Of a stretch of DNA of 26,445 bases, positions 2,929 to 21,228 are shown piece by piece (positions within the stretch are counted from its first letter, which is position 1; every line of letters begins with the position of its first letter). This DNA is from a virus. The position numbers were made by a program, and so were the translations under genes. The stretch covers positions 1 to 26,445 of the IMG/VR virus record IMGVR_UViG_3300005613_002292. One strand, 5' to 3'. The notes under the pieces were generated by a model. It did no database searches and had not been told where the DNA came from. It saw only the letters and a list, made by a program, of their open reading frames with translations.

Positions 2929-3397
2929 ATTTTTTACCTACATTACTTAATGCTTCTTTAATTTCTTGACGGAATTTAGCAGACATTTTTTTACGAAGTT
3001 GTTTTTTTGCTTCAGTCTTTATAGCTCTCTCCCTTCTTTTTTGCTCTCTTATACTTCTTTTTCGTTCTTTCTCTTCCTTTGCTTTTAGGCGATCACCATC
3101 ATTTGACAATCTCATGTTTTGGTAAAGATAATCAACTAATGTTTTACCTCTAAAAGACACTCCAGAATCTTTAATTACTTTGGCAAGATAACCGATAACT
3201 CCAGAAGTATCTTTTGATTTAGACCTTTTACCAGTCCAATCATAAATAAAAGACATTTTTCTAACTGTTTCGGAGTCGCCTCTTTCGTGTTTGTCCACTC
3301 CTACATAATCTGATAAACGGTGATATGTTGGATTGTACTTAGAATTAATTTCTAATGAAACTTCTTTTGGTGTTTCTTCCTGATTTGCTGATTCCAT
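2921..3397 (-). CDS. Basic, coiled-coil protein of unknown function
   Basis: This 158-aa protein has a C-terminal half (about 95-150) that is extremely rich in Lys, Arg and Glu and probably forms a long charged helix or coiled coil. The N-terminal half contains aromatic and charged residues but no motif I recognise. The ATG at 3397 directly follows the T-run of an intrinsic terminator and has no Shine-Dalgarno sequence, so its expression depends on read-through of that terminator or on another start. No better start with a ribosome site is visible before Met48. The position between the glycan island and the fibre genes suggests a virion assembly or nucleic-acid-binding role, but this is a guess. 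Confidence 0.65.
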   Translation of the reverse strand: MESANQEETPKEVSLEINSKYNPTYHRLSDYVGVDKHERGDSETVRKMSFIYDWTGKRSKSKDTSGVIGYLAKVIKDSGVSFRGKTLVDYLYQNMRLSNDGDRLKAKEEKERKRSIREQKRRERAIKTEAKKQLRKKMSAKFRQEIKEALSNVGKKYV

Positions 3398-3426
3398 AAA
3401 AAAACCGCCATATTTTCTTATGGCGG
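3398..3426 (-). terminator. Intrinsic terminator at the end of the glycan island
   Basis: Read on the minus strand, CCGCCATA and TATGGCGG form a perfect 8-bp stem with a 6-base loop (stem bases 3426-3419 and 3412-3405), followed at once by seven T (3404-3398). It lies 12 bases after the stop of the last glycosyltransferase gene. The T-run ends exactly at the start codon of the next gene. Confidence 0.85.
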
Positions 3427-3438
3427 ACTCTAATCTTA

Positions 3439-4173
3439 CTAGATTTTGCGTCTTTTGAGATATCTTAACACTGGATATGTTCCTTTGTCAAGTAACTCCT
3501 TTTTTCTTTCTTGATACTTACCATGTATCCCATTATTCTTTTCCCAGTCTTTTAATCTTGGATGTTCTAATGAAAAACTTTCATTTCCTTGGTCAAGAAA
3601 AAACTTATATCCTAAAGCATTAAGTCTTTCATTTACACCATAACCATCCATACCTACGAAAACTTGATCTGCTCCTTCATCAAATCCACCAACTTCATAC
3701 AATGCTTTTTTACTACAAGCACACAAATTCCACTCAATATCATTAAAATAAACTTCATAAAAAGCACCTAAGTCTGTTCGTTTCCTTGGGTCTTGCCAAG
3801 TGATAGCACTCCAACTTCCATCCTTGTATTTATGTCCAACTGCACCGATTAGACTTTTTTTATTATTCTGATAACAATACCAAAACTTTTCTAAGCAATG
3901 CGGTGTAGCAAAAGTGTAATCCTGCCAACTAACAATTAATTCTCCCCTAGTTTGTTTAATAAGTTTATTGTAAATGCGATTAAGAGACCAAAAGCCACCT
4001 TTAAAATCGTCTTTAACCCACTTGATAGATGAACCATTGTATTGTAACTCTTTAGGATTAAATTTTGAACCAATTAACCATTCAAAGTCATTAAAAGTTT
4101 GCCTGTGAAGCGCCTTTAGAACGATTCTAAGACCTTTTCTCCTTATGCTTGGTGTAATGATGCTAATTTTCAT
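3439..4173 (-). CDS. GT2-like (GT-A fold) glycosyltransferase
   Basis: This 244-aa protein starts MKISIITPSIRRKG, the usual first strand of GT-A glycosyltransferases of family 2, with the donor-binding acidic motif probably at SWQD (82-85). A later GGFDEG block (about 164-169) and an acidic DGYG fit the acceptor side. There are no membrane helices, so it should act in the cytosol with a nucleotide sugar as donor; donor and acceptor are unknown. I chose ATG at 4173, not the in-frame TTG at 4185, because GGAG lies 6 bases ahead of it and it makes an ATGA overlap with the previous stop. It is the last gene of the glycan island before an intrinsic terminator. Confidence 0.8.
   Translation of the reverse strand: MKISIITPSIRRKGLRIVLKALHRQTFNDFEWLIGSKFNPKELQYNGSSIKWVKDDFKGGFWSLNRIYNKLIKQTRGELIVSWQDYTFATPHCLEKFWYCYQNNKKSLIGAVGHKYKDGSWSAITWQDPRKRTDLGAFYEVYFNDIEWNLCACSKKALYEVGGFDEGADQVFVGMDGYGVNERLNALGYKFFLDQGNESFSLEHPRLKDWEKNNGIHGKYQERKKELLDKGTYPVLRYLKRRKI
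3462..3491 (-). promoter_or_regulatory. Candidate sigma-70 promoter before the terminator
   Basis: On the minus strand TTGACA (3491-3486) is followed after 18 bases by TAAGAT (3467-3462). The -35 box is perfect and the -10 box matches 4 of 6. It lies inside the 3' end of a glycosyltransferase gene, about 50 bases ahead of the terminator at 3398-3426, so a transcript from here would begin with a short leader holding that terminator, as in an attenuator. AT-rich coding DNA gives such matches by chance, hence low confidence. Confidence 0.3.
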
Positions 4174-4724
4174 TTTAATCTCCAAATAAGGTATTCATCT
4201 TTTTTAATAATAGAACCACATTGCCTACAATAATAAAACTCTCCACCTGGCATACCGTCTGGATATTCAATTAATGGTCCAAGAGTAGTATTCTTTCTCT
4301 TAAAATCAAGTCTCCTTCCACAAATTAAACAAAAATGTTCATGTTCAAGACCAAACTTTTTATAAGGAAAATAAAACTCTCCTTTACCTAGTTTTTGATA
4401 ATACTCGTCCTTTATTATTTTACCAGTGCCTTTGCCAACCGGTTTTAAAACTGGCACAGTTTTTTGTTTAATAAACTTATATGCTGTCAATCTATGCCAG
4501 CCATCTTTTATATAACCCTCTTCATCCACAATAAGTGGCGGTAAAACAACATCATTTAAAAGCAATTCAATATAAACATTGAGTTTTCTATCAGTAATAG
4601 TTTTGCCAATTTTTTTACCCATAGAAATATCAACCTTTTTAGTAGGCCATTCAACAATCTCCCAATTCTTATTCTGACCATCGCACACTTTTATTATTTT
4701 TGCTAAGTTTGGATAGTATTCCAT
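4170..4724 (-). CDS. ParB/sulfiredoxin-fold protein with C-terminal zinc ribbon
   Basis: This is a 184-aa protein with two parts. Residues about 20-100 carry IKDGWHRLTAYKFI (72-85), the DGxHR signature of the ParB/sulfiredoxin superfamily, whose members include DNA-binding partition proteins, nucleases and free-serine kinases. Residues about 132-175 hold two CxxC pairs (CLICG and CRQCG) that should bind zinc. The combination suggests binding of DNA, RNA or a nucleotide ligand, but the exact activity cannot be read from sequence. It sits inside a run of glycosyltransferases and overlaps its neighbours by 22 and 4 bp. A role as a small kinase or transferase supplying the glycan pathway is as possible as a regulatory role. 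Confidence 0.7.
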   Translation of the reverse strand: MEYYPNLAKIIKVCDGQNKNWEIVEWPTKKVDISMGKKIGKTITDRKLNVYIELLLNDVVLPPLIVDEEGYIKDGWHRLTAYKFIKQKTVPVLKPVGKGTGKIIKDEYYQKLGKGEFYFPYKKFGLEHEHFCLICGRRLDFKRKNTTLGPLIEYPDGMPGGEFYYCRQCGSIIKKDEYLIWRLK

Positions 4725-5359
4725 TTTAATAGCTTCACCATCCTTTCTCTTAAGTCCCAGTGGTTTTTAGCTTTGTAATAACCCACGCCACCATCAGGCA
4801 AATTAGTAATATATTTATTATCTTCTACAGCGGGAATGACTTTTGATTTATTAATCATACTTAAAATTAAATCTTCTTCTCTACCAAGATTTCCCAACTC
4901 TTTTTCTGCTTCAAACATTTTTAATAAAGCAGTTTTACATGTAAAGATTGTTCCGTTGCCAACCAATAAATCTACTTCTTTAGGTTTATCAATAGTATTA
5001 GCCCAAATGTTTTTAGCCGATCTATATGAATTGTCTTTTGAAAGTATCTTTCCCCTATAACCAAAGCAACAGCCCTTTTCAGCATGATTAGCAAAATTCT
5101 CTAGTGTTTTACTTCTAATAGTCATATCGTCATCTATAAAATAGTAGTAATCACTTGGTTTAAGCAAGGCAACCGCATATCTTGCTCTACCTCCATAATT
5201 AAAGTTGCTATTAATAGCCCCTTTGATTCTTACTTTTGGATTGTTGTTAAATACTATGATTTTAGGTTTAATAGAACCCCCTTTTAAATCATCAACAATT
5301 CGTTTTATGTTTTTAACCCGTTCTGGCCAATAATGAAGTATTACTGTAGTAATTTTCAT
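4703..5359 (-). CDS. GT2-like glycosyltransferase
   Basis: This is a 218-aa protein with a GT-A type layout: an N-terminal Rossmann-like half (MKITTVILHYWPERV), then YYFIDDDMT (72-80), whose DDD should bind the metal and nucleotide sugar. VGNGTIFTCK and GREEDLILS further on resemble the acceptor-side and catalytic-base region of family 2 enzymes. It is shorter than most (250-300 aa) and has no membrane segment. ATG at 5359 overlaps the preceding stop as ATGA. Donor and acceptor are unknown. It belongs to the same coupled operon as the other sugar transferases. Confidence 0.75.
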   Translation of the reverse strand: MKITTVILHYWPERVKNIKRIVDDLKGGSIKPKIIVFNNNPKVRIKGAINSNFNYGGRARYAVALLKPSDYYYFIDDDMTIRSKTLENFANHAEKGCCFGYRGKILSKDNSYRSAKNIWANTIDKPKEVDLLVGNGTIFTCKTALLKMFEAEKELGNLGREEDLILSMINKSKVIPAVEDNKYITNLPDGGVGYYKAKNHWDLRERMVKLLKWNTIQT

Positions 5360-6081
5360 TCTATAAATCCCTTTCCGTAATTAGCACTCATCTGATCAGG
5401 ATAAAGTTTATTCCATAAATCTTCTGGATATTTACCCCATTTCTTTTTAAAGTATTCCCTATTTATTTTGTCATACTTCGCTCTCTGTCCATCTGAAATA
5501 CTATCAAGTATTTTGAAAGTATGACTGCCCCAATGTTGATATTGAGCTTTGGTTGTATAAGCAGTTTTCCAACCTGCTTTTCTAAATCTTAACCAAAAAT
5601 CCCAGTCATCATAAGTACCTCTACCATCAAACTTTTCATCATAAAACTGTATTGCTTCTTTTCTTATTAAAAAGAATGAGCTAGTACACCATCTTTCTTT
5701 ACCAGTTATCCACACTTTATCCCCATTGTAAAAAGGCGTATCATAAAAAATCTCGTGAAAGTGAACCGAGCCAACCTTTTTATCCTTAAAGATATCTAAA
5801 GCTACTTTAAATATATTTTTTGGCACTCTAATATCATTGTTGCTAATACAAATAAATGGTGATTTTGCCAATCGCAAACCATTATTAACAGCTCTAGTGT
5901 AACCGTAGTTTTTATTAAGTCTAATATAAGTATCGGCAACCTCACGTAAATAACCAGCTCCATAAGTAGAGGCATTATCAACCAAGATAAGCTCGCTTTT
6001 AGGCAAGCTCTCTATTGATAATTGAGTTAAATTTAATGTTTCAGCAGTTGCAATCCAACAAGGTATTACTGTGCTAACCAT
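5356..6081 (-). CDS. GT2 glycosyltransferase (rhamnosyltransferase-like)
   Basis: This 241-aa protein has clear family 2 features: LILVDNAST (31-39), NYGYTRAVNNGL (58-69), the metal-site equivalent SNND (80-83), and GTYDDWDFWLRFRKAGW near 155-171. These phrases match the WbbL-like branch of GT2, which includes many rhamnosyltransferases, although substrate cannot be deduced. It is soluble, with no membrane helices. ATG at 6081 has AAGGA 5 bases upstream and the gene overlaps the previous one by 8 bp. It probably adds one sugar to a growing glycan together with its neighbours. Confidence 0.85.
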   Translation of the reverse strand: MVSTVIPCWIATAETLNLTQLSIESLPKSELILVDNASTYGAGYLREVADTYIRLNKNYGYTRAVNNGLRLAKSPFICISNNDIRVPKNIFKVALDIFKDKKVGSVHFHEIFYDTPFYNGDKVWITGKERWCTSSFFLIRKEAIQFYDEKFDGRGTYDDWDFWLRFRKAGWKTAYTTKAQYQHWGSHTFKILDSISDGQRAKYDKINREYFKKKWGKYPEDLWNKLYPDQMSANYGKGFIE

Positions 6082-6880
6082 TTATTCCTTTTAACACTGC
6101 TTTTAAGTAACAATCGGCAGTATAATTTTTTAATATAAACTCTCTTGGTGTCAAACCAGACTCCTTATATTCTTTAATATAGCTATAAGTTTTTCTGTTT
6201 CTTACTGGCTCTAAAACTTCGGGTAGTATATTACAACTCATCGCTTCTAAAACCGTTCTTTCTGAACCATGAATCGCAGGAATGATAACTTTTTCAGCCC
6301 TTCTGTAATAATCCCTTATTTTTTCTACTGGGAAATATCCTGTTTCTATATTTACACCAGTTTTTTTACAGGCTTCTAATTCTTCTTTTCCGTCTGGTTG
6401 AACCGTGCCGACACAAGTCAATCTGTTGCCTAAATAGGCAATATTAGACTGTAGTTTCCAATTGCTAAAAGTAGCAGGATAAAAGTATTCAATGTCTTTT
6501 TTAACCTTTTTAGGAGTAAAAAACTCAGCATCGGTTCCAAATGCTTTAATTGCTCTAACACCCAGCCTTCTAACCGCCTCATAGACAGGCGTTGATTCAC
6601 AAAACACCACATCAAAGCCTTTTAAATTATCAGGGTCATCAGGAGTTGTAGTTAAAAACAGTCCTCTTTTAGCATTATAAGTTGATTTCATTCTTGAAAA
6701 ATTGCTGTAGCTACCAGACCAAGCTAAAATCCAATCATATTCCTTTTTAGGTGTTTCAAATAACAACCAATCTACATTATGTATTTTCTCTAGTTTCTCT
6801 ATACAAGCCCTCAACCCATCACGCCATAAAGGCATAATCTCTTTTGCTTTATCCCACTCCCAAATAAGCGCAATATTCAT
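6074..6880 (-). CDS. GT-B fold (GT4-like) glycosyltransferase
   Basis: This 268-aa protein (ATG at 6880, not the GTG at 6895) has a GT-B pattern: an N-terminal domain ending in CESTPVYEAVRRLG, and a C-terminal donor domain with AIHGSERTVLEAMSCNILPEV (about 205-225), the usual glutamate-rich donor loop of GT4-type enzymes. It is short for the family, which normally has 350-400 residues, so the N-terminal domain is reduced. The chosen start makes an ATGA overlap with the previous stop and has AAGGG just upstream. No membrane helix is seen. Its place in the glycan operon supports a sugar-transfer role; the donor is unknown. Confidence 0.75.
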   Translation of the reverse strand: MNIALIWEWDKAKEIMPLWRDGLRACIEKLEKIHNVDWLLFETPKKEYDWILAWSGSYSNFSRMKSTYNAKRGLFLTTTPDDPDNLKGFDVVFCESTPVYEAVRRLGVRAIKAFGTDAEFFTPKKVKKDIEYFYPATFSNWKLQSNIAYLGNRLTCVGTVQPDGKEELEACKKTGVNIETGYFPVEKIRDYYRRAEKVIIPAIHGSERTVLEAMSCNILPEVLEPVRNRKTYSYIKEYKESGLTPREFILKNYTADCYLKAVLKGING

Positions 6881-7593
6881 AATAACCCTTTCCACTTTTC
6901 AGGTATATTTTCCTTTTCATTCATTCCAATTTGAAAATGCGCTTTGTCTTTTTTAAATCTACCTCTATTACAAAATAAATTCCAGTCAACTTTTTGTAAA
7001 TGCACCATAATTAAGTCTGGATCAGCTATTGACTTAAGATATTCTCCTATTCCTAGTTCAACTTTACTAGCTCTTCCCGCGTCTTCTTCTACATAATGAT
7101 AACCTTCTACATAATTAAGCGGTGCTTTAGAAATAGCAGGCTTGAAATAAGAAGGATGCGGCCACCAAATCTTTCTTTGAGATAAAATAGGTTTTTCCCA
7201 GTCTATTCCTCTTTCACCTTTTAATTGTAAAACCTCTCTACCGGTACAATAAACAGTCTCCTTGTCCATTTTAGTAATATAGTCATCTAAACTCTTATAC
7301 TTTTCAGGATTAACAATAATAAACTCATCAGCTTCAGCAAATATTACAACGTCATAGTCTTGTAAAAGTTTTCTTTGATATTGTTTGCCAGTCTCCTTCA
7401 TAAAAGTTTTACCATAATGACTATTATCATCTAAATAAAACTCGGTAAAATTAAAGTTCTTTTTGGCTCTTTCTACACTTCCATCAGTAGATTTATGATT
7501 GATAACAAAAAGATCAAATTGACTATAATGTTTTAACCACAGAGGTAAAAACACACTTTCATTTTTAACAACCGTAAAGACTGCTGTTCTCAT
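6877..7593 (-). CDS. Glycosyltransferase of the Glyco_tranf_2_4/GT92-like type
   Basis: This is a 238-aa protein. The start, FTVVKNESVFLPLWLKHY (6-23), followed by INHKSTDGS and IFAEADEF (84-91), is the pattern of the PF13704-like glycosyltransferases, with EAD as the metal-binding acidic motif. It is a clear paralogue of the gene at 9010-9753: both share WWPH, K-AISK-P, GYHY/GFHY and ADPDLIMVH. I moved the start to ATG 7593, which has GGAG upstream and an ATGA overlap, in place of GTG 7611. There are no membrane helices. Its close pairing with the GT75-like gene suggests linked steps in one glycan. Confidence 0.8.
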   Translation of the reverse strand: MRTAVFTVVKNESVFLPLWLKHYSQFDLFVINHKSTDGSVERAKKNFNFTEFYLDDNSHYGKTFMKETGKQYQRKLLQDYDVVIFAEADEFIIVNPEKYKSLDDYITKMDKETVYCTGREVLQLKGERGIDWEKPILSQRKIWWPHPSYFKPAISKAPLNYVEGYHYVEEDAGRASKVELGIGEYLKSIADPDLIMVHLQKVDWNLFCNRGRFKKDKAHFQIGMNEKENIPEKWKGLL

Positions 7594-8453
7594 TTCATAA
7601 ACTCCTTCCACCGTTCTAACTTTTTATGATAAACCTTAAAATACCTATCTGTATCTTCACCTTTCCAATATTCTTCATTTAATCTAATACCCTTAGCTTC
7701 CTTTTCAAGATTGTTAAACACATTACTGGCTTTCTCATGATAAGCAGCAGCAAAACCAGAAACTACAGCCCAACCACGCTTGTCTATCTCCCTCTTAGAG
7801 TTTATGCCACAAAAAATATCATCAAATCGGTGAACATTATAAACTCTAGGCGCCATATACATAAAAGGCAACATTTTCCTTTTAAAAGCTAAATTCATAC
7901 TAGACATAGGATAATAAACTCCTTTAGGAATAGGCTCTTTATAAAACTTAATGTTAACGTTTCCTTTAACCAACTGAGTAGGAGCATCATAATCAGCTAT
8001 ACCTCCCCAAATTCCATGTGATAATACCACCTCAGCCTCATTTCTAACCCCATAAGGAAAACCCCTTGTATATTCTGTTCCTGTCCTTGTCCAACTAATA
8101 GGCACTCTCATATTAAGAGCGTTAACATGATCTTGAACAGTATCTCCGATCGGTTTTAAATCATCATCTAAAGTAATAATATATTCAACCTCTGGACACT
8201 GCTTGGCAATATAAGCAAAACCCAAGTTCCTAACAGCAGCGGTAAGATTAGTAATTAAATCATTGTATTTACCCATTACCTGCTTGACCGACAATCTTTT
8301 ATCGTCACAAGTCTTTAAAACAGGCTCTTTACCATCATAAACAATAAAAACCCGACAGTTAAAATTCCAGTCTTTTAAAAACTGCCCTATCTTTTTAGGT
8401 CTTATTGTCGGAATAACGACAGCACAAGTTTTATCCTTTATTTTTTCTTGCAT
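7590..8453 (-). CDS. GT75-like protein (UDP-arabinopyranose mutase / RGP family)
   Basis: This 287-aa protein matches the plant reversibly glycosylated polypeptide family along its whole length. Visible landmarks are AVVIPTIRP (11-19), TLDDD (94-98, metal site), RGFPYGVRNE (130-139), IADYDAPTQLVK (152-163), YPMSSMNLAFKR (181-192), RFDD (209-212), and HEKASNVFNNLEKEAKGI (239-256). Family members interconvert UDP-L-arabinopyranose and UDP-L-arabinofuranose and glycosylate themselves reversibly on an arginine in the region matching 130-137. The inferred role is supplying a furanose donor, or using a related sugar, for the neighbouring transferases. It overlaps its neighbours by 16 and 4 bp. Family placement is strong; substrate is not proven. 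Confidence 0.85.
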   Translation of the reverse strand: MQEKIKDKTCAVVIPTIRPKKIGQFLKDWNFNCRVFIVYDGKEPVLKTCDDKRLSVKQVMGKYNDLITNLTAAVRNLGFAYIAKQCPEVEYIITLDDDLKPIGDTVQDHVNALNMRVPISWTRTGTEYTRGFPYGVRNEAEVVLSHGIWGGIADYDAPTQLVKGNVNIKFYKEPIPKGVYYPMSSMNLAFKRKMLPFMYMAPRVYNVHRFDDIFCGINSKREIDKRGWAVVSGFAAAYHEKASNVFNNLEKEAKGIRLNEEYWKGEDTDRYFKVYHKKLERWKEFMK

Positions 8454-9013
8454 ATTTGAAACATACTTTCTGTTCCTTCTTCGTTGATATAGTTTGTTCT
8501 TTCACTAAACAGATATCTTAAAGCATAAACAGCTGGCTTGACATAATGTTTTTCAGCATGATAATAATCATGAAACAAAATGTAGTTACCAACTCTCACT
8601 TCTGGCACCCAAGCGGCAATATCTTTTCTTACTGACAACTCTTGATGATCACCATCAATAATTAGCAAATCAATTGGTTCGTGCCATGTTCTACTACCTT
8701 CAACAGAATCAACATGATGCAAATGCCAATTTTTAATACCTTCCATATTTTTAAGACATTCTTTTTTCGCAGCCTCTCCCCTGATTATACCGTCATCCTT
8801 ATATTCATAATGAGAAATATAAGAATCAAATGAATGTATTTGACTTTTAGGTGAAGACAAACAAAGCATCTTGCTTGATCTTCCCATATAAGAGCCAATT
8901 TCTACAATTGTTCCGTTCACTTTAGAGGCATAATCATACAATACTTCACAATCACACTCAGGCATCCAGCCCCTTATATGCTTTACTTGATTAAATACTT
9001 CTTTAAATGTCAA
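8438..9013 (-). CDS. Class I SAM methyltransferase (Methyltransf_24-like)
   Basis: This is a 191-aa protein with the SAM-binding motif GTIVEIGSYMGRSS (34-47), an acidic strand end HSFDSY, and LLIIDGDHQELSVRKD about residues 115-130 (motif with metal or substrate contact), then GNYILFHDY. This order is that of the Methyltransf_24 family, which often methylates sugars or small hydroxylated groups. The TTG start at 9013 is supported by AAGGAGG four bases upstream and by a TTGA overlap with the previous stop. Its location between two transferases suggests O-methylation of a sugar in the phage glycan. Substrate is inferred only. Confidence 0.8.
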   Translation of the reverse strand: MTFKEVFNQVKHIRGWMPECDCEVLYDYASKVNGTIVEIGSYMGRSSKMLCLSSPKSQIHSFDSYISHYEYKDDGIIRGEAAKKECLKNMEGIKNWHLHHVDSVEGSRTWHEPIDLLIIDGDHQELSVRKDIAAWVPEVRVGNYILFHDYYHAEKHYVKPAVYALRYLFSERTNYINEEGTESMFQICKKK

Positions 9014-9753
9014 AAAACCTCCTTATATTTTAACGGGATTAAGGAACATTTTCCTTTCCGTTTACTAACAAATTTATAAAAAGGAGTGTCTGCACCCTCC
9101 CTTTTTGTTTTTAATCTTTCAAACTCTTCAGCATCTATAAATCTTGTATGCACCATAATTAAATCTGGATCAGCTATTTTTTGTATATAGTCCTTTATGC
9201 CAAGTTCACACTTTGCGGCTTTAGCAATAAAACTTTTAGGATAATGAAAGCCCCAAACAAACTTTTGTGGCACTTTTGAAATTGCTGTTTTATAATGAGC
9301 GCTATGCGGCCACCAATGCTTCCTTTGTTTCATCCACGGTTTATTCCATTCCATAGCTAGTTCGTCTTTATGCTGTATAATTTCTTTACCAGAACAAGTA
9401 ACTTCTTTCCTTTTTACTTTTTTAACATAATCCTCAAAATCTTTATACTTGTCTGGATTTGCAATAATAAACTCGTCTAAATCAGTATAAACTACATAAT
9501 CATACTTTTTTAACAGTCTTTTCTGCTGTTCTTGTATTGCATTCACACATAAATCGTGATAATCACCAGTCCCCACAACACCAAGTTCTTTTAATTTAAT
9601 TTCTTCAAATTTATATCCATAAGTAGGTAAATCTTTTTGTTTATCACTCAAATTAACCACATAAACATCAAAATTAAATTGACAATAATACTTTAACCAA
9701 TGTTTAAACCAAAAGTTATAATTTCTAACATAAACCAAACAAGCTATTTTCAT
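9010..9753 (-). CDS. Glycosyltransferase, paralogue of the 6877-7593 gene
   Basis: This is a 247-aa protein starting MKIACLVYVRNYNFWFKHWL, with YVVYTDLDEF (86-95) as the acidic metal motif. It shares long stretches with its paralogue at 6877-7593 (DEFII-NP-KYK, WWPH, AISK-P, ADPDLIMVH), so one arose from the other by duplication. The N-terminal VKNE motif of the paralogue is VRNY here, a change at a usually conserved place. I chose ATG 9753 because it overlaps the previous stop as ATGA; the earlier in-frame ATG at 9780 would overlap the upstream gene more. It is soluble. The pair flanks a methyltransferase and the GT75-like gene, hinting at a four-gene functional unit. Confidence 0.78.
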   Translation of the reverse strand: MKIACLVYVRNYNFWFKHWLKYYCQFNFDVYVVNLSDKQKDLPTYGYKFEEIKLKELGVVGTGDYHDLCVNAIQEQQKRLLKKYDYVVYTDLDEFIIANPDKYKDFEDYVKKVKRKEVTCSGKEIIQHKDELAMEWNKPWMKQRKHWWPHSAHYKTAISKVPQKFVWGFHYPKSFIAKAAKCELGIKDYIQKIADPDLIMVHTRFIDAEEFERLKTKREGADTPFYKFVSKRKGKCSLIPLKYKEVF

Positions 9754-10349
9754 ATTACTATTAAGCCAAATCCTGACCAATGAAGGTCTGGTAATGATAA
9801 TTTAGGATATTTAATTTCATCCCATGCTTTAATCATCCCATCATTAAGTCTAATATCATCTATTAATATAATTGTTCCTTTTTTAAAGTATTGATCATAT
9901 AATTTTAGTTCAGTATGTAACTGGGTGTAGTTATGATCTGTATCAAAAAACCACAAATCAGTCTTTTCAAGCTGGCAATCTTTAGGCCATGTTGCTAAAT
10001 CAAGATCATTTCCTCTTATTAGCGTTAGATTAGGATAATCTTGCTTAATAAATCTAAATTCTTCTTCAGGTTCAGGAATAGAACAAGCGTAAAGCATTGA
10101 ATTTTCAGGTAAGGTTGATAACATCATTAAAGCTGAAGCGCCACCAGCAGACCCAAGCTCTACGACTTGTTTTGGTTTAATTGCCTTTACAAGTGCGGCT
10201 AAATAACGATAATACCTTGATGTAGAAACATTATTAATATCATTAAGACTACCTTGATTGACATGTTTAAGATAAGGTTGAATCTTTTTCATGTCCAACT
10301 TAACTAGTTTGTCTCTAGCTAATTTGTCTATCTCTTTAGGTGTTACCAT
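9750..10349 (-). CDS. Class I SAM methyltransferase
   Basis: This 199-aa protein has QVVELGSAGGASALMML (60-76) as the SAM-binding loop and LWFFDTDHNYTQLHTEL near 130-146, the pattern seen in Methyltransf_24 and cephalosporin-hydroxylase-like methyltransferases. GTIILIDDI follows, the expected strand after the catalytic region. The N-terminal 55 residues are helical and may bind the substrate. It overlaps the small zinc-finger gene by 7 bp and the next transferase by 4 bp. Sugar O-methylation is the likeliest role given the neighbours, but protein or nucleic acid substrates are not excluded. Confidence 0.78.
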   Translation of the reverse strand: MVTPKEIDKLARDKLVKLDMKKIQPYLKHVNQGSLNDINNVSTSRYYRYLAALVKAIKPKQVVELGSAGGASALMMLSTLPENSMLYACSIPEPEEEFRFIKQDYPNLTLIRGNDLDLATWPKDCQLEKTDLWFFDTDHNYTQLHTELKLYDQYFKKGTIILIDDIRLNDGMIKAWDEIKYPKLSLPDLHWSGFGLIVI

Positions 10350-10522
10350 TTTTTGATTCGTTCAGAACTAGGCATTTTTCCCGTTACTGGATCTCTATGG
10401 CGTTGTTGATATTCGTAATTAGCATTACAAATCTTACTATGACAAACTTTAGGCTTTCTTTTTGGATTCCAATAAGGAATATCTTTACCGCACATAATAC
10501 ATTTGGTATGTAAAACCTTCAT
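10343..10522 (-). CDS. Small zinc-finger protein
   Basis: This is a 59-aa basic protein with CIMC at residues 8-11 and CHSKIC further on, giving four cysteines and a histidine that could hold one zinc ion. The start is ATG 10522, which has a strong AAAGGAGG site five bases ahead; the longer in-frame version would begin inside the previous gene. It lies 2 bases after the preceding stop. The conserved fold looks like small phage zinc fingers that bind nucleic acid, but no partner can be named. It is the only clearly non-enzymatic small gene in the middle of the glycan island. Confidence 0.7.
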   Translation of the reverse strand: MKVLHTKCIMCGKDIPYWNPKRKPKVCHSKICNANYEYQQRHRDPVTGKMPSSERIKKW

Positions 10523-10524
10523 TT

Positions 10525-11304
10525 TTACCTCCTTTGGTAAGAAAAACAAACTAAACCATCTTTACTAAAAAGGTCTCCTATTTTATAATCTTTTAAAAGC
10601 TCCTTGATTGTTTCTTTTGTAAACACTCTTATATGTCCTCTCGGTAGTTTGCCATCCCATTCCCAACCGCCCTCAATATTTCCCATACCATTACCATAGG
10701 GACCATCTGGAGTGGTAACATAAACCCATCCCTTAGGTTTAACCATCTTAGCCATATGGTCTATAAAATCCTTTGGATCAACTACTACATGTTCAAATAC
10801 TTCCATACAGGAAACAAAATCAACCTTTTCCTTTGGCATAAAAGTCGTTATATCTTCTTGAACAAACTTAGCTTTAACACCCAACTCTTCAGCTCTTTGT
10901 CTTGCTACTTTAAGAGCGCCATTGGTCATTTCAACTCCAGTGGCTTTTATTCCACATTTACTAGCATAAATAACTATACTGCCAACATAACAGCCAAGAT
11001 CAATCATAGATTTAGATTTATATTTTTCTAAACCATCAACAATCCACTGATAACGAGCATATCTAATACCTGGATTAAGTGCTATAGCAGCTGGTTCAAT
11101 ATTTTCGCAGTCGTCAGCAGGAACATCAAGTAGCTTCTCTAACCACTTTGGCTCAAAAACATGACGAACTATACCGTAAGTATTTTTTCGTTCTTCGTCT
11201 AAATCTAAATCCTTAAAATGTTCTAGTAGTTTCCACGCCTTAAGTGGTTCATCTTTGATTACTAATTCTTTTCTAATTATTTTAATAGCTGATTTTATGT
11301 CCAT
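10525..11304 (-). CDS. Class I SAM methyltransferase (Methyltransf_11/23-like)
   Basis: This 259-aa protein carries SMIDLGCYVGSIVIYASKCG (SAM loop, about 99-118), GVEMTNGALKVARQRA with an acidic ribose-binding Glu, FVQEDITTF and SCMEVFEHV, followed by PKGWVYVTTPDG. This is the standard motif order of Methyltransf_11/23 enzymes. An N-terminal 90-residue helical region precedes the core. It overlaps the split GT4 gene by 23 bp. Such enzymes within glycan clusters often methylate a terminal sugar and so cap a chain; that role is inferred from context here. Confidence 0.8.
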   Translation of the reverse strand: MDIKSAIKIIRKELVIKDEPLKAWKLLEHFKDLDLDEERKNTYGIVRHVFEPKWLEKLLDVPADDCENIEPAAIALNPGIRYARYQWIVDGLEKYKSKSMIDLGCYVGSIVIYASKCGIKATGVEMTNGALKVARQRAEELGVKAKFVQEDITTFMPKEKVDFVSCMEVFEHVVVDPKDFIDHMAKMVKPKGWVYVTTPDGPYGNGMGNIEGGWEWDGKLPRGHIRVFTKETIKELLKDYKIGDLFSKDGLVCFSYQRR

Positions 11305-12010
11305 ATTTCTTTTGCATTTGAACCGGTAATAATTTAGCCAATGACTTATCTTTTTTTAATAATACATCCATTGCTTCTTTTAAATCGTCTTGTTTAAATT
11401 CATTAGACCACTTCTCCGCCACTTTTCTCCACCCAAAGGTATCCTTGCCCCACTTCATCATTGGTTTTCTAATTTCTTCTTGTCTTTTGTGATCTTTTAA
11501 AAGATTAATCAACTGCTTTTTATATTCTTCCTTTACTTCTGGTTCATAAATGTCGCCTTCAATTTTAATTCCATGTTGAACTGTAGTTTTTAAAGCAGCA
11601 TAGTTAACACAAACGGGAATAGCCCCCCATGCTTGAGCCTTCATGGCGCTTATACAGCTTATTTCTCCAAAGTGTGTAGGATAAGTCCATAAACCACATT
11701 TTTTATACCACTTCTCAATCTCTGGTTGTGAAACACGCCCATGATGAGTAATACCATCTGCTTTCATCATTTTGTCCATTTTCTCCTTCCACGCCATTGA
11801 GGCTGGATTATTAGCGTAAAAACGAACAAATAACTGCCAGCCATAGAAAATATGAAGCTCCGCTTGTGGAACTGCCTTTTTAACATCAGGCCACATTTTC
11901 AACAAATGCTCCAAGCCACGATCGTACGAACTACAGTACAAACACCAATAGGGATTACGCTTTCCCAAGTTTTTTTTGCCAATATTTTTTGTTATAATTT
12001 GTTTTTCCAT
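11282..12010 (-). CDS. GT4 donor-domain half of a split glycosyltransferase
   Basis: This is a 242-aa protein. From about residue 18 it matches the C-terminal Rossmann domain of GT4 enzymes: YCSSYDRGLEHLLKMWPDVK (25-44), ELHIFYGW, HHGRVSQPEIEKWY and THFGEISCISAMKAQAWGA. The second glutamate of the usual E-x7-E motif (E116) is Lys124. The N-terminal acceptor domain is absent and is found instead at the end of the next gene upstream (12204-14042). The two parts would join at the GT-B hinge. The first 16 codons overlap the HNH reading frame in another frame, so they may not be ancestral. ATG 12010 has only a weak AAGAAG site. It may work as a two-chain enzyme or be inactive. Confidence 0.8.
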   Translation of the reverse strand: MEKQIITKNIGKKNLGKRNPYWCLYCSSYDRGLEHLLKMWPDVKKAVPQAELHIFYGWQLFVRFYANNPASMAWKEKMDKMMKADGITHHGRVSQPEIEKWYKKCGLWTYPTHFGEISCISAMKAQAWGAIPVCVNYAALKTTVQHGIKIEGDIYEPEVKEEYKKQLINLLKDHKRQEEIRKPMMKWGKDTFGWRKVAEKWSNEFKQDDLKEAMDVLLKKDKSLAKLLPVQMQKKYGHKISY

Positions 12011-12200
12011 GACACTTCTTACATAGACTAATTAAATTTTTAGGATCAATATTTTTTTTATCATAATCAATATGATGGCAAGATAGCTTGCAACCTAATT
12101 CTTTTTCTGTTTTGCCACAAATTTGACAAGTATAATTGTCTCTTTTCCTTATCTGTCTTTTTAACTGTCCATTGAAATCTTTTGTATATGGCTCGGTTGT
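11955..12200 (-). pseudogene. HNH endonuclease domain without start codon, inserted in a GT4 gene
   Basis: An 81-codon open frame directly follows two stop codons (TGA TAA) that end the upstream glycosyltransferase. It reads TTEPYTKDFNGQLKRQIRKR, then DNYTCQICGKTE, SCHHIDYDKKN and NLISLCKKCHGKTNYN. This is a complete HNH core: two CxxC zinc pairs, the catalytic His in HHIDY, the Asn and the final CH. There is no ATG, GTG or TTG in the frame. It is in the same frame as the upstream gene but separated by the stops. The usual N-terminal DNA-recognition part of homing HNH enzymes is missing. I read it as the decayed remainder of a homing-type endonuclease; stop read-through or a non-standard start cannot be excluded. 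Confidence 0.75.
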
Positions 12201-12203
12201 TTA

Positions 12204-14042
12204 TCATAAATCAACTCCATTACCTGTAATCATTATTTTATCATCAGGTATATCGGGCAAGTTTTCTCTATGCCACTGACTTAAAACCATAATTTTAGTA
12301 ATTTTATCTAATCGTTCTTTGGTATAGTCTAGCTGATTTTGAATGTCGTGGCACCAAATGTAAATCTTTTTAGCATTATAATTTCCGTCAACAAAATTAG
12401 GCTGTCTCCAAGCTATTACAATATTAAAAGTGTCTTTAGCGTTAAACTTAAAATAAGGTTTGTATGTAACTCCGTCATATTCCCCTTCATCTGCTCCTGG
12501 ATCAGCATAGACAGTAACCTTCCAACCTATTTTAGCCAATTCCTTACTCATGTAAATAACTGCTTCCTCACTTCCACCTATAAAGGATTGTCCTGGCTTA
12601 TCTAAAGACTTAGGCGACCATGGGGTATAACTAAATCCACAAACAATAGCAATTTCATTTTCTCCCCATATTCTCGGCGGAATAACCCTTTTGCTAAGCT
12701 CTGACATAAAAGGATTGTTAACAATTAAATTAGGCAATGAAAGCAATAATGGTTTTAGTTTCTCCTTTTGTCCTGATTGTTCTAAATGTTGAGATAAACT
12801 TATTACACTTTTAGTTAACTTCTTTTGAAGAACCAAATTGTTAGTAAACTTTACTCTCTCAGCCATAGATTTATTATTAGGTAAAAGCTCTTTAAGTTTT
12901 TGAGAAGCCGCCCACGCCTCATCAATTTTACCAGTGTGAATAGAAGCATGAAAAATAATCTCTAAAGCTCTTGCCATTAAATCACGGGGATTACTTACTA
13001 ACGTTGAACGGGGACTTTTGATTTTAGAAGCTAATTTAACCCAGTGTAATGCTCTTTCCCATTCCTTTTTAACCAGATAAGACATAGCTAGATTAAGATA
13101 AGCACCAGGAAACCTGTCATCCTCTATTAAAGAATTATGACCGCATTTTATAGCATTGTTTGTTTCTCCAAAAGCACGATAAATCTCTACTAAATATTCC
13201 CAGCATTGTGCCCGTTCTTCTGCCCATCCCGACTGATTCTCGCCACTTACATAAGCCAAAAACAATGTTTTAGCTGATTTTAAAAACTCCTTATTCTTAG
13301 TAGTCAACCAAACGTCAAAATGAGCTTTACCTAAATAATAAATAGGACGAGGGTCTTTGCCTTTTGTTTCATAAAGACTTAACTCCAAGTTTTTAATATT
13401 TCTTAATAATGCCTTTTTTGACCTTTTTGAATTAGATAAATGAAGAACATCACACCAATCATTTTCCCCTTTCTTTGTAGGTTTTTGTTCGATTAAGGTT
13501 TCATGAATACAAGCTATCCACTTATGAACGCCCGTATTTCTAATTATCCTTTCTCTCAAATGTTCAATCAAAATATTTCTAACTTTGTTATTAACAATCT
13601 CCGCCTGATAAATGTAATTCATGAAAACACTATCTAATTTATTTGCTTCTGCCCATTTAATAATTTCCCTTAACCTATTACCTCTGAAAATATCATCAAC
13701 ATCTAACCATATCATCCATTCAAATTCCTTTGGTGTTTGAGCTAAATTATGATTTCTCGCTTTATCAAATAAGAAGATTTTGTCACCAACTTCTATCTCT
13801 GGATTTAAACCAAACTTTTTTAACCACTTAATATGTTTCTTTTTAATAATTTTAAAAAACTTTTTAGGTTCATAATCAACTACAGCACCATATTTTTCAG
13901 CCACTGCTTTTAAGTTGTTATTAGTTGGAGTTGTAATGGTAATAAACATTCCGTCCACTTGCCCATAAATAGAATTTAAAACTCTATTAAGTATTTTTGG
14001 GTCTTCATGCCCCGCCACAATCATGTTTAAAGCGATTTTCAT
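12204..14042 (-). CDS. GT2-TPR-GT4 glycosyltransferase, truncated in its GT4 domain
   Basis: This is a 612-aa protein with three parts. Residues 1-220 are a GT-A domain with WLDVDD (112-117) as metal site. Residues about 230-390 form helical TPR-like repeats. Residues about 463-612 are the N-terminal half of a GT4 GT-B domain, with FIGGSEEAVIYMSKELAK (487-504), VTVYADPG, IYIWCHD and ITGNGVDL at the very end. A normal GT4 continues after NGVDL into the donor domain, but here two stops occur and an HNH domain follows; the missing half is encoded at 11282-12010. The GT2 part looks intact. ATG 14042 overlaps the previous stop as ATGA. It probably built two linkages of one glycan before the split. 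Confidence 0.85.
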   Translation of the reverse strand: MKIALNMIVAGHEDPKILNRVLNSIYGQVDGMFITITTPTNNNLKAVAEKYGAVVDYEPKKFFKIIKKKHIKWLKKFGLNPEIEVGDKIFLFDKARNHNLAQTPKEFEWMIWLDVDDIFRGNRLREIIKWAEANKLDSVFMNYIYQAEIVNNKVRNILIEHLRERIIRNTGVHKWIACIHETLIEQKPTKKGENDWCDVLHLSNSKRSKKALLRNIKNLELSLYETKGKDPRPIYYLGKAHFDVWLTTKNKEFLKSAKTLFLAYVSGENQSGWAEERAQCWEYLVEIYRAFGETNNAIKCGHNSLIEDDRFPGAYLNLAMSYLVKKEWERALHWVKLASKIKSPRSTLVSNPRDLMARALEIIFHASIHTGKIDEAWAASQKLKELLPNNKSMAERVKFTNNLVLQKKLTKSVISLSQHLEQSGQKEKLKPLLLSLPNLIVNNPFMSELSKRVIPPRIWGENEIAIVCGFSYTPWSPKSLDKPGQSFIGGSEEAVIYMSKELAKIGWKVTVYADPGADEGEYDGVTYKPYFKFNAKDTFNIVIAWRQPNFVDGNYNAKKIYIWCHDIQNQLDYTKERLDKITKIMVLSQWHRENLPDIPDDKIMITGNGVDL

Positions 14043-14452
14043 AATGCCTTTGCTATTCTAAATTTAGGAAACTTTTTAAGAAACTTTTCAAAAAACTCTT
14101 TATCCATTTTTAGCTCTTGAGGACTATATAATACCCTAATCATATTATGAACTCTTACTGGTAAATCAAGCATTGCCCTACCATAACTTCCGCCTTTTTT
14201 AGTAACACCTCTAAATCTTTTGCTACCTACTGATGTTACTTTTCTACTAGCTTTTGTTTTTTCCAATGTAATAATAAACGACTTATACTCCTTAGGTCTT
14301 TCTGCTGTCCATACTTTTAGAATTTCCGCAATAACAGTCCATATACCTTTAGTTTTTTTGAAGTGAATTAAGTGGTCAACAGTTTTAACTGCCCCAGCTG
14401 GAGCATATTTATAAGCAGAAATTAAATCGTGATGTTTTTTTAAGTCTTTCAT
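14039..14452 (-). CDS. Unknown basic protein following the capsid gene
   Basis: This 137-aa protein is rich in Lys and Arg, with no motif I recognise. It has helical stretches at both ends and a GSKRFRGVTKKGGSYGRA segment in the middle (about 76-93). It follows the major capsid gene after 94 bp and overlaps the GT2-TPR-GT4 gene by 4 bp, so it joins the capsid genes to the glycan island. Head-completion or minor capsid proteins are common at this position, but so are acceptor proteins for glycosylation; neither can be shown. ATG 14452 has no clear ribosome site. Confidence 0.65.
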   Translation of the reverse strand: MKDLKKHHDLISAYKYAPAGAVKTVDHLIHFKKTKGIWTVIAEILKVWTAERPKEYKSFIITLEKTKASRKVTSVGSKRFRGVTKKGGSYGRAMLDLPVRVHNMIRVLYSPQELKMDKEFFEKFLKKFPKFRIAKAL

Positions 14453-14546: not shown

Positions 14547-15485
14547 TTATCCCCCCGTTGCATAGCCAGAACGTCTTGCTGAAGACCTTTCTGCTAAATA
14601 CTCCAAAGTAACCTCGCCAATAATGTGACCATTTTCACGATCTCCATCTTTAGAAAGTCTTTCCCTCTTTGGAGGTCTCAAATAAGCAAGCTTCCACTTG
14701 TCTTCTTTAATACCAATTATCTGAGGGCCTGGAGTAGTTGATGCACTAGGAACGTCCTTGTGAGCAAAAAGTTTGTGAACACCTCCATCAGACTCGTAAA
14801 CCTCGACTGGTCTAGTAAGTCTTTTATCAGTAGCATCCACGTACTTTGTCGAGCCAGCTGTAAAAGTAGAAATCTTTTGCTTCAATCCGAACGTAGTCAA
14901 AACTGTATCAAACACATCTGAATGACCAACATCATCCCATACATCTTTAACCATGTTATTAAACTCGGTTTCAGATAATGAACTTCCAGAATTCCTATTA
15001 GTATAGTGGCTTGTAATGACGGACTTAAGTCCTGCCATTGTTCTTGCAACACCAGACGAACCAGAGGCTAAGGCTCCCTGAACAATATCATACTCAAGCT
15101 GATTTTTCCACTCTCGGAGTGCTTTACTAGCTTGATAATCCAATGGATCGCCCATGCCTGCATGGTCAACGTCCCTTTCCGTGCCAGAAACCCTATATGT
15201 CTGCTCGATAATTTCACACCAATTATGTCGTCTTACAGGTTGAGTTAAGTCGCTATAAGTAGCGGCTGCACCTTCGACTGAAGTTGACTGACTGGTTTTA
15301 CGAGAAATATAGTCTTCTAGCCATTCGTGGTGAACTTGTTTTGCTGTGCCTCTACCAAGCATAGTTGCTAAAGGATTGTCGTCTGGACTTACATCAGTAA
15401 TAATATCCAATAAATCCTCTCGCATTGCTTGATCGCTGTCCGTAGAGCCAGCAGAATCCACCCATGTTGCTAATCCGTATGCCAT
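14547..15485 (-). CDS. Major capsid protein, SU10 type
   Basis: This is a 312-aa protein whose layout matches the SU10-type major capsid family (DUF5309, HK97 fold). It has DVSPDDNPLATMLGRGTAKQ near 31-50, HHEWLEDYI, an SVEGAAA block, and the VSGTERDVDHAGMGDPLDYQ region followed by ALREWKNQLEYDI. It would form the shell of the icosahedral or prolate head. Start ATG 15485 has AGGGGGTG upstream. It follows the scaffold gene by 21 bp, as usual. Family membership implies a tailed phage, and SU10 itself is a podovirus, but the tail type here is not proven by this gene. Confidence 0.92.
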   Translation of the reverse strand: MAYGLATWVDSAGSTDSDQAMREDLLDIITDVSPDDNPLATMLGRGTAKQVHHEWLEDYISRKTSQSTSVEGAAATYSDLTQPVRRHNWCEIIEQTYRVSGTERDVDHAGMGDPLDYQASKALREWKNQLEYDIVQGALASGSSGVARTMAGLKSVITSHYTNRNSGSSLSETEFNNMVKDVWDDVGHSDVFDTVLTTFGLKQKISTFTAGSTKYVDATDKRLTRPVEVYESDGGVHKLFAHKDVPSASTTPGPQIIGIKEDKWKLAYLRPPKRERLSKDGDRENGHIIGEVTLEYLAERSSARRSGYATGG

Positions 15486-19149: not shown

Positions 19150-19926
19150 TTATTTCCAGACAACTATTTCTAACTCCAGATTAGTTTTATCCTGTATCCT
19201 TTTTACTAATGTCAATACTTCTTTTGAAGTTGCCCCGCCAGTATTTAAAATAAAAGAGGGAAACATTGGAGAAACTACTGCTCGACCCTCCCATTCTCCA
19301 ACCATTTTCGCTTTTCTAATTATGTCATTTCCACCCCAACTCCCCTTAAACCAACAGCCAGCTGAAGGAAAAGAAGGATAGTCCCTTTTACGCTTCTCCT
19401 GTATTCTGTTATAAAGCTCTATCAAGTTTTTGGCGGGTTTCATTTGAAAAATAGCACTAAGAACAATCCAATCATGAAAAGCGCTTGTTCTATGTCCAAA
19501 ACCGCATTCCTCTTTGGTAAACAATTTTACTTTCTTTGTTTTCCGATTAAGAGCTTTAACACTAATTAGATAATCTGAAATTGTGCCAAGAGACGCACCT
19601 GCGTTCATAATTATAGCCCCACCGATAGTCCCTGGTATTCCCGACACGTGGACAAGTCCTTTTAAACCCTTCTTAGCGGTTATCAAACCCGCTTTCTTTA
19701 ACAAGAAGCCCGCACCTACTACTAACCTTGTTCCAGTGAGTTTAAAATCGTTCAACTCAATTTTTATAACTTTATCAACTCCCCTATCAGAAACTAAAAT
19801 ATTAGTCCCAGCTCCCAAGATATAACCATTTAAATCTATTGCCATTAAGTCTTTTAAAGACTTGATAATGTGAAATCGTTTAGCAGGACCCCCTATTTTA
19901 TAACTTGTCCGATTTTTTAATTCCAT
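19150..19926 (-). CDS. murB: MurB-like UDP-N-acetylenolpyruvoylglucosamine reductase
   Basis: MurB uses FAD and NADPH to make UDP-N-acetylmuramate, the second committed step of peptidoglycan synthesis, in the cytosol. This 258-aa protein shows SYKIGGPA (8-15), YILGAGTNILVSDRG (35-49), VSGIPGTIGGAIIMNAGA (94-111), GHRTSAF (144-150), PSAGCWFKG (187-195) and a final LELEIVVWK. Thus both FAD segments, the arginine (146) and the terminal Glu are present. The catalytic Ser of the E. coli enzyme is replaced by Cys191; I cannot say whether this lowers activity. It is short compared with the usual 300 aa but complete. It overlaps the pyruvyl transferase gene by 29 bp, and its place between terL and portal is unusual. 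Confidence 0.88.
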   Translation of the reverse strand: MELKNRTSYKIGGPAKRFHIIKSLKDLMAIDLNGYILGAGTNILVSDRGVDKVIKIELNDFKLTGTRLVVGAGFLLKKAGLITAKKGLKGLVHVSGIPGTIGGAIIMNAGASLGTISDYLISVKALNRKTKKVKLFTKEECGFGHRTSAFHDWIVLSAIFQMKPAKNLIELYNRIQEKRKRDYPSFPSAGCWFKGSWGGNDIIRKAKMVGEWEGRAVVSPMFPSFILNTGGATSKEVLTLVKRIQDKTNLELEIVVWK

Positions 19927-20947
19927 TAATTATTAATTGATAAACCATTTCTGCTTTTCTTCGGACGCTCGGAATAGTCTTCTCCAATCCTTTTCTGATT
20001 TCCTTTTTATTCTTCCAAACCTTAACAGCTTGTTTAAATATTTCTTCAGCAGTCGGCATTAAAAGCATTTCTTTATAAGGATAATCAATCATTTCTAACA
20101 ATCCTGGCATTTTAAATCCTATGTCTGGTGTCATTGCCACAAATGGAGTACAAGCAGAAGCAGAATAAACTATCCCGTGATATCTATCTGACACTAAAAT
20201 TCCATCTTTAAGAATATCAATTAGTTGTCCAGCATCAGGTCTATCATCAACAACAAATGATTTATGATTCATCATCTTTGCTATTTCTCTAGCTTGCACT
20301 CTATCATCACGACTACCATGACCAATAGGAATAAACACAACAGGTCCCATTGTTTCTACTGCCATATCAGCAAATCTTGCTACTTCTTTTAAGTTATTAG
20401 CAAGATAACCCCTAATACCTATTTTAACTGCATTTTGTGGAAGAGCTTTAAATGGTTTAGGCTTAACAGTAAAAACACCATCAGGAAGTAATTTAATATG
20501 GTCCCCTTTAGCACCTATATCTTCAGTGATTAATTTATATGAATCTTTCTCTCTAGCAACAACTAAATTTGCTTTATTTAATACAATCTTGCCTAACTCC
20601 TTAGTTTTGTCGCTTAGATTACCTATAAAAGTCTGAGAACCAAAGAAAGTCAATTTACCAAGAGATTGAGCAATCCTAAAATAATTAAAATGATTAATCA
20701 TATCGTCCCCATTCATATAGCCACCACCTTGACTGATCACTACATTTGATTCTTCTAGTGCTTTAGATGACAACAATGGCATTACTTTTACATAATCAAG
20801 CTGTTCTAAATCCCATCTTTCGGTTTTCTGCGAACAAATAGTGAAAGTAGCAGAAAAAGCTTCTTTTAAGTGATTCATCATACTTTTCCAAATTGCCACA
20901 TCTCCTGTGTTGCCTGTCTGCCAACAATGAGTGAATAAGATTTTCAT
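19898..20947 (-). CDS. Polysaccharide pyruvyl transferase (CsaB-like)
   Basis: This is a 349-aa protein of the PS_pyruv_trans family, which adds a pyruvate ketal from phosphoenolpyruvate to sugars of cell-wall or exopolysaccharides. Motifs are GNTGDVAI near the start, VVISQGGGYMNGDD (about 70-83), LVVAREKDSY, LLPDGVF and ILVSDRYHGIVYSASACTPFVA, where the His lies in the donor site. ATG 20947 was chosen because GGAGG lies 7 bases ahead and it overlaps the previous stop as ATGA; the ATG at 20953 is too close to that site. In CsaB systems the product anchors S-layer proteins. Beside MurB it suggests the phage alters a host surface polymer. Confidence 0.87.
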   Translation of the reverse strand: MKILFTHCWQTGNTGDVAIWKSMMNHLKEAFSATFTICSQKTERWDLEQLDYVKVMPLLSSKALEESNVVISQGGGYMNGDDMINHFNYFRIAQSLGKLTFFGSQTFIGNLSDKTKELGKIVLNKANLVVAREKDSYKLITEDIGAKGDHIKLLPDGVFTVKPKPFKALPQNAVKIGIRGYLANNLKEVARFADMAVETMGPVVFIPIGHGSRDDRVQAREIAKMMNHKSFVVDDRPDAGQLIDILKDGILVSDRYHGIVYSASACTPFVAMTPDIGFKMPGLLEMIDYPYKEMLLMPTAEEIFKQAVKVWKNKKEIRKGLEKTIPSVRRKAEMVYQLIINGIKKSDKL

Positions 20948-21228
20948 TTCCATACCTCCCTAATCATAAAAGACTTAATGTTTACATTGTCTGTTTCTTC
21001 TGATTTAATTTGAGTTACATTATTATTTTGGACAAATGTTCTTATCGTGCCATAACCTGTCCCAAGTCCAATATTGCCCAACGCTCTAATATATCTAGGA
21101 ATGATAAGTGGATTAACTCCTGTTTCTGCTAGTGCTACTTTAATCATATACAATTCAGGGTCTAACTTCCTAATAACGTTCCAGTAAGTTTCTAAGTTTG
21201 CTTTTTCTACTGTTGGTAATGATTTCAT
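20944..21228 (-). CDS. Small unknown protein after large terminase
   Basis: This is a 94-aa protein with a helical N-terminus and a PLIIPRYIRALGNIGLGTGYGT segment (40-61), ending in a charged tail. It overlaps terL and the pyruvyl transferase gene by 4 bp each, so it is probably co-translated. I do not recognise the family. Small genes in this place may aid DNA packaging or regulate late genes, but nothing in the sequence decides that. Confidence 0.7.
   Translation of the reverse strand: MKSLPTVEKANLETYWNVIRKLDPELYMIKVALAETGVNPLIIPRYIRALGNIGLGTGYGTIRTFVQNNNVTQIKSEETDNVNIKSFMIREVWK

Follow-up and report, generated by a model that had tools for sequence, protein, structure and literature searches.

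Capsid-linked locus for putative O-methylated glycan assembly in an uncultured SU10-type phage lineage

Glycosylation of tailed-phage virions has been shown in few cultured systems. In the mycobacteriophage Corndog (cluster O), an O-methyltransferase gene and three glycosyltransferase (GT) genes, gp35-gp38, lie within the structural operon (PMC4351075), and the cluster O capsid and tail tube are reported to be glycosylated in two papers that both cite Freeman 2023 (PMC11600133, PMC12619734). In the chlorovirus PBCV-1 (A064R, A111/114R), soluble cytosolic GTs glycosylate the major capsid protein, one of them carrying a predicted methyltransferase domain (PMC5408694). When the literature was searched for further phages with this arrangement, the mycobacteriophage and chlorovirus cases alone were returned. 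Here, a locus of this kind is described from the complete IMG/VR record IMGVR_UViG_3300005613_002292, a linear virus fragment of 26,445 bases (hereafter, the window), in which a row of sugar and methyltransferase genes at 3439-14042 (the island) follows the major capsid gene. The original prediction presented this combination as possibly an undescribed phage modification system; that was too strong, because GT and O-methyltransferase genes in a structural operon, together with glycosylated virions, had already been described for cluster O (PMC4351075; PMC11600133). The kind is thus known from cluster O and the chloroviruses, and new are the size, the modularity, and the division of a GT-B enzyme at the boundary of its domains.

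Corndog and the window have in common GT and O-methyltransferase genes in the structural block. The proposed mode of action and the genetic context resemble those of the cluster O cassette, and the proposed chemistry resembles that of the chlorovirus capsid glycans. Corndog carries four such genes between portal and protease, whereas the window carries 12 sugar or methyl open reading frames (ORFs) past the capsid gene, belongs to an unrelated capsid lineage, and adds a nucleoside diphosphate (NDP)-sugar mutase, a TPR-GT fusion, the split GT-B enzyme and swappable sugar-biosynthesis genes. PBCV-1 is a eukaryotic virus with scattered genes and six GTs expressed early, whereas the genes of the window come from a small tailed phage and are clustered beside its capsid gene. 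With a probability of roughly two in three, the island is interpreted as a capsid-linked modular locus of an uncultured, podovirus-like SU10-type lineage that directs cytosolic assembly of O-methylated glycans on virion proteins.

The minus strand has the look of a late-gene array, in the order terminase, portal, scaffold, capsid, g19, island, g04, g03 and a fibre-like protein. The portal matched SU10_portal in Pfam at 4e-7, 0.6 bit below the cut-off, and together with the SU10_MCP match this places the phage in the SU10-like capsid lineage. Family names from Pfam are annotations, not assays. The capsid gene, which is followed by a 94-nucleotide (nt) gap to 14452, and the genes of the island are as follows.

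14547-15485, minus strand: major capsid protein (SU10_MCP), anchor of the locus (Pfam PF17236, 3e-65)
14039-14452, minus strand: g19, conserved protein of 137 amino acids (aa) at the capsid/island boundary, following the capsid gene in most relatives; no match in Pfam
12204-14042, minus strand: g18, GT2 (GT-A) domain, TPR-like middle and N-terminal half of a GT4 (GT-B) domain, the invariant core of the island (PF00535, PF13439)
11282-12010, minus strand: g17, an ORF of its own for the donor-binding, C-terminal half of the GT4 enzyme (PF00534, 4e-11)
10525-11304, minus strand: g16, S-adenosylmethionine (SAM) methyltransferase (Methyltransf_23, 2e-21)
10343-10549, minus strand: g15, Cys-rich (zinc-finger-like) protein of 68 aa, with homologs in most relatives; Pfam matches insignificant
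9750-10349, minus strand: g14, SAM methyltransferase, rhamnosyl-O-methyltransferase-like (PF13578, 4e-12; PF04989, 4e-5)
9010-9780, minus strand: g13, GT2-type glycosyltransferase (Glyco_tranf_2_4, weak, 1e-3)
8438-9013, minus strand: g12, SAM methyltransferase (Methyltransf_24, 8e-15)
7590-8453, minus strand: g11, GT75 NDP-pyranose/furanose mutase (RGP, 4e-32)
6877-7611, minus strand: g10, GT2-type glycosyltransferase (Glyco_tranf_2_4, 9e-10)
6074-6895, minus strand: g09, GT4-type glycosyltransferase (GT1/4, weak; PF13692, 7e-4), with homologs in relatives at 30-87%
5356-6081, minus strand: g08, GT2 glycosyltransferase (1e-9)
4703-5359, minus strand: g07, GT2 glycosyltransferase (4e-4)
4170-4724, minus strand: g06, protein of 184 aa with Cys pairs, a ParB-like motif being seen by eye only; 84-85% counterpart in the phage of relative L002
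3439-4185, minus strand: g05, GT-A glycosyltransferase by structure model, closing the island in most relatives

The ORFs, strand and coordinates agree with the original prediction, and its three SAM methyltransferases were borne out by Pfam. Its count of about eight transferases holds in so far as eight GT-type ORFs are present; two of these are the halves of one GT-B enzyme, and g11, which had been counted as a transferase, is a GT75 mutase instead and makes a ninth sugar enzyme. The g18 protein matched the beta-1,4-glycosyltransferase of PHROG 13126 (1e-22), and g14 showed a weak likeness to the NCBIfam rhamnosyl O-methyltransferase (7e-4, under the cut-off). The g13 and g10 genes are homologous (38% identity between the g13 homolog of L002 and g10). 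For g05, which has no Pfam match, an AlphaFold2 model with a predicted local distance difference test score (pLDDT) of 89 was matched by Foldseek to chondroitin polymerase, SpsA and TarP (E 2e-11 to 9e-11). The two small Cys-rich proteins of the island are g06 and g15; for g06, originally predicted to be a ParB-fold/zinc-ribbon protein, a search of Pfam returned no ParB match and weak zinc-ribbon matches only, its model was of low confidence (pLDDT 38), and a search of IMG/VR returned no relatives.

For g11, the closest protein of solved structure was the UDP-arabinopyranose mutase of PDB 8cid (7e-15). In GT75 enzymes, a DDD motif, an autoglycosylated Arg, a general-base Asp and a Mn-binding His are described (PMC9937993). 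In an alignment with 8cid/7yua and with the homolog of relative L009, g11 keeps these as D96-D98, R130, D212 and H239, so that it probably supplies a furanose donor; that this is UDP-arabinose is guessed from the match to 8cid. The catalytic features are common to g11 and the GT75 mutases MtdL and OsUAM1, from which g11 differs in being phage-borne and shorter than the solved members. Another phage contig (L051, IMG/VR 3300020195_000062) carries a GT75 mutase (45%) adjoining a dTDP-glucose dehydratase-like gene, methyltransferases, GTs and HNH ORFs.

Relatives were collected by capsid alignment and comprised 25 IMG/VR loci, two kinds of circular Manatee Spring records (phage records of ~42.6-42.9 kb) and one contig of a Moraniibacteriota metagenome-assembled genome (MAG); after removal of duplicates, 19 viruses had enough sequence past the capsid gene. 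A search for the same island in related phage contigs had been proposed, and a GT2-TPR-GT4 protein lies past the capsid gene in all 19, mostly behind g19. A layout that recurs in 19 distinct relatives is more than chance. GenBank phages outside this group that have an SU10 capsid (288 records, capsid below 60% identity) gave no GT2-TPR-GT4 match except in four Manatee Spring records; thus, the island marks this lineage.

The accessory genes vary among the relatives and include NAD-epimerases/GDP-mannose dehydratase-like enzymes, DegT aminotransferase, a two-domain sugar C-methyltransferase, GFO/IDH/MocA, hexapeptide transferases, PIG-L, polysaccharide deacetylase, radical SAM and FkbM proteins, and cytidylyltransferases (6 of 51 ORFs). 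As judged from their families, these enzymes act on NDP-sugars or glycans. Compared with L002, all island genes of the window have ratios of non-synonymous to synonymous substitution of 0.05-0.27, with terminase, portal and capsid at 0.07-0.09, which indicates that the island genes are under purifying selection. The most divergent island genes in this comparison are g10 and g11, and the L002 island has an additional methyltransferase; both observations point to exchange inside the island. Such variation, along with the insertion of HNH and other small genes and the higher divergence of g10 and g11 than of their neighbours, would also be expected if the tail side of the capsid gene were a hot spot where passenger genes (morons) for sugar enzymes pile up without a common product. 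That explanation is improbable, given that g18/g17 form an invariant core, that g05, g08 and g09 recur in most relatives in fixed order, that every gene is under purifying selection, and that the accessory genes are limited to glycan functions and small HNH or zinc ORFs.

The core enzyme itself is divided. The cut falls exactly between the two halves of the GT4 domain, both in the window and in most relatives, the N-terminal half ending g18 and the C-terminal half forming its own ORF. A single fused GT2-TPR-GT4 protein is found in L009, L013, L024-L027 and L029. The separate ORF begins in an ATGA overlap, with Shine-Dalgarno-like GGAG codons ahead of it in several members. Frameshifting at g18/g17 was also considered: no shared slippery heptamer was seen, and the GGAG codons of these members favour re-initiation. 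In Alg13/Alg14, a GT-B enzyme is likewise split into two Rossmann halves on separate polypeptides; g18/g17 differ from that pair in being GT4-type, in the fusion of the N-terminal half behind GT2-TPR, in the ATGA overlap, and in having fused counterparts in other members. One further feature lies between the halves in the window.

11955-12200, minus strand: HNH endonuclease remnant in a frame without an ATG, GTG or TTG start (Pfam HNH, 8e-5)

The 3' part of this remnant overlaps the N-terminal extension of g17 in a different frame, and the remnant is missing from L002, whose portal is 85% identical. The junction gathers inserts elsewhere: L003 has an HNH-like ORF there (by eye), and L018 and L021 have methyltransferases.

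The short-overlap coupling that had been described was confirmed: 13 of the 14 junctions from 3439 to 14452 overlap by 4-31 nt, start codons being set by the longest ORF so that true overlaps are possibly shorter. The single non-overlapping junction, of 193 nt, contains the HNH remnant. In the islands of the relatives, 127 of 157 junctions overlap. The original prediction also held that no transferase has a membrane helix and that flippase and polymerase are lacking. In agreement with this, no 19-residue segment of the island attains a hydropathy of 1.6, and among the 151 island ORFs of at least 100 aa in relatives, three marginal hydrophobic segments (two in methyltransferase Rossmann strands) but no clear membrane protein were found. 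The islands of the window and 16 relatives are without any clear membrane protein, and no flippase, polymerase, Wzx/Wzy/ligase, ABC export or lipid-carrier priming transferase was found in them. Like the island, O-antigen and exopolysaccharide loci are modular, with genes for GTs and sugar tailoring and a variable centre between fixed flanks; they differ from it by the flippase, polymerase, ligase and lipid-carrier initiating enzyme, which are absent here. Soluble enzymes without a flippase argue for cytosolic assembly, which fits protein acceptors and is compatible with lipid-linked ones.

Under the virion-glycan interpretation, the head proteins and soluble sugar enzymes would be made together, and NDP-sugars would be drawn from the cytosol, some of them being reshaped and the GT75 mutase supplying a furanose. 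The sugars would be joined one by one by transferases of the GT-A and GT4 types, among them the invariant GT2-TPR-GT4 enzyme, split here at the GT-B domain boundary, and would be O-methylated by the three methyltransferases. The acceptor would most likely be a virion protein, the candidates being the capsid, g19 and the fibre proteins whose genes come right after the island, and particles would exit the cell already glycosylated. We infer that the genes serve one pathway with this order of sugars, O- rather than N-methylation, and a virion acceptor.

Several facts weigh against this interpretation. The acceptor and the glycan are predictions from gene content. Cell-surface polysaccharide clusters draw on the same enzyme families, and helix-free peripheral GTs act on lipid-linked glycans there too. 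One phage, MW202497, carries its GT2-TPR gene between terminase and portal, not past the capsid gene. Finally, two genes with cell-wall-type functions lie upstream, between terminase and portal of the window.

19898-20953, minus strand: polysaccharide pyruvyl transferase, CsaB-like, marking a second site of glycan genes (PF04230, 2e-25; CsaB, 2e-19, under the cut-off)
19150-19926, minus strand: MurB-like UDP-N-acetylmuramate dehydrogenase (8e-52, under the curated cut-off), overlapping the pyruvyl transferase gene

Both genes are also present in L002 (MurB-like, 73%; pyruvyl transferase, 77%), and the pyruvyl transferase gene in L004 as well. These two genes, the enzyme families shared with O-antigen and exopolysaccharide clusters, and the cytidylyltransferases of some relatives, one of them beside a LicD-like ORF (L029, by eye) as in wall-decoration pathways, would suit an island that alters host surface glycans (a lipid-linked oligosaccharide, a wall polymer or an S-layer glycan) and masks receptors against re-adsorption by progeny or competitors, with the host flipping and polymerising the product. 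This is unlikely, though far less so than the passenger-gene explanation: the islands of the lineage contain no membrane-bound step, the locus stands between head and fibre/tail genes in all relatives but one, and an operon shared with the capsid means late expression by usual phage logic. Glycosylation of the phage genome itself, as hypermodified bases against restriction, is the least probable explanation. Such a role of phage GTs is known, and one relative has a cytosine-C5 DNA methylase; however, activities such as sugar C-methylation, NDP-sugar remodelling and pyruvylation are suited to glycans, and capsid genes adjoin the island. In addition, 25 families were listed for 77 ORFs from the early regions of five relatives, with no thymidylate synthase-, hydroxymethylase- or base-activating family among them; for the phage of the window, the early region was covered only in part.

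Tentatively, the virion-glycan interpretation may be extended: the locus would do for the virion what a serotype locus does for a bacterium. The glycan would be anchored on structural proteins by a fixed core (GT2-TPR-GT4, g09, g08 and g05), the core GT-B working as two polypeptides, and swappable sugar genes (furanose mutase, deoxy- and amino-sugar enzymes, methyltransferases and CDP-activated groups) would individualise the coat. If glycosylation of the virion is true, a whole lineage of ~42-kb phages would devote about one quarter of the genome to a glycan set that is conserved yet reshuffled. A sugar coat on the capsid would then be a lasting trait of the lineage, subject to diversifying exchange of genes, and would bear on adsorption, particle stability, recognition and phage typing. 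The locus also offers new soluble sugar enzymes, in particular a phage GT75 mutase and a split GT-B enzyme.

Transcription of the locus was predicted to start at a promoter ahead of the scaffold gene and to end at a terminator at 3398-3426, so that capsid and glycan genes would form one late transcript. Ahead of the scaffold gene, no site scored 10/12 or higher; the strongest late-strand promoter lies upstream of the portal gene (19135-19107, 11/12), with a like site in L002. Capsid and island could share a transcript starting before the portal gene. At the other end of the island, two signals were located.

3462-3491, minus strand: sigma70-like promoter, TTGACA-18-TAAGAT, with TG ahead of the second hexamer, within the end of g05; similar sites in relatives
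3398-3426, minus strand: GC-rich hairpin (3405-3426) and T7, CCGCCATA...TATGGCGG-T7, abutting the g04 ATG (3397)

The hairpin with its T7 run is real, but it is preceded by a conserved promoter and abuts the g04 start codon. The order promoter, hairpin, T7 and g04 ATG was found in 10 of 12 viruses examined, with differing (covarying) stem sequences; the layout of the window (3394-3491) is shared by L002/L031, L005, L006, L009, L013, L016/L036, L018, L020 and L021. The hairpin may be the island terminator, an attenuator, a structured leader for the fibre and tail genes, or both. Given the promoter inside g05, a single transcript of capsid, island and tail genes ended by the terminator is probably too simple.

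The sole hint of a host for the lineage comes through co-binning: a capsid search of 84,980 genomes returned one contig, L029, in the Moraniibacteriota MAG (43% capsid identity). In the class of this MAG, capsid matches were weak only, and no second GT2-TPR match was found among 384 genomes. Positions 1-10625 of L029 carry capsid, GT2-TPR-GT4, deacetylase, cytidylyltransferase and LicD-like ORFs.

At the record end, two neighbouring HIT-domain genes occupy 25437-26443 of the window; the second protein had no match in 188 genomes of the MAG's class. A hexanucleotide array of AGCCAG (~36 copies, 82% matches) lies at 24856-25069 and is readable as Gly/Ser/Asp/Tyr-rich or Ala/Met/Leu-rich repeats.

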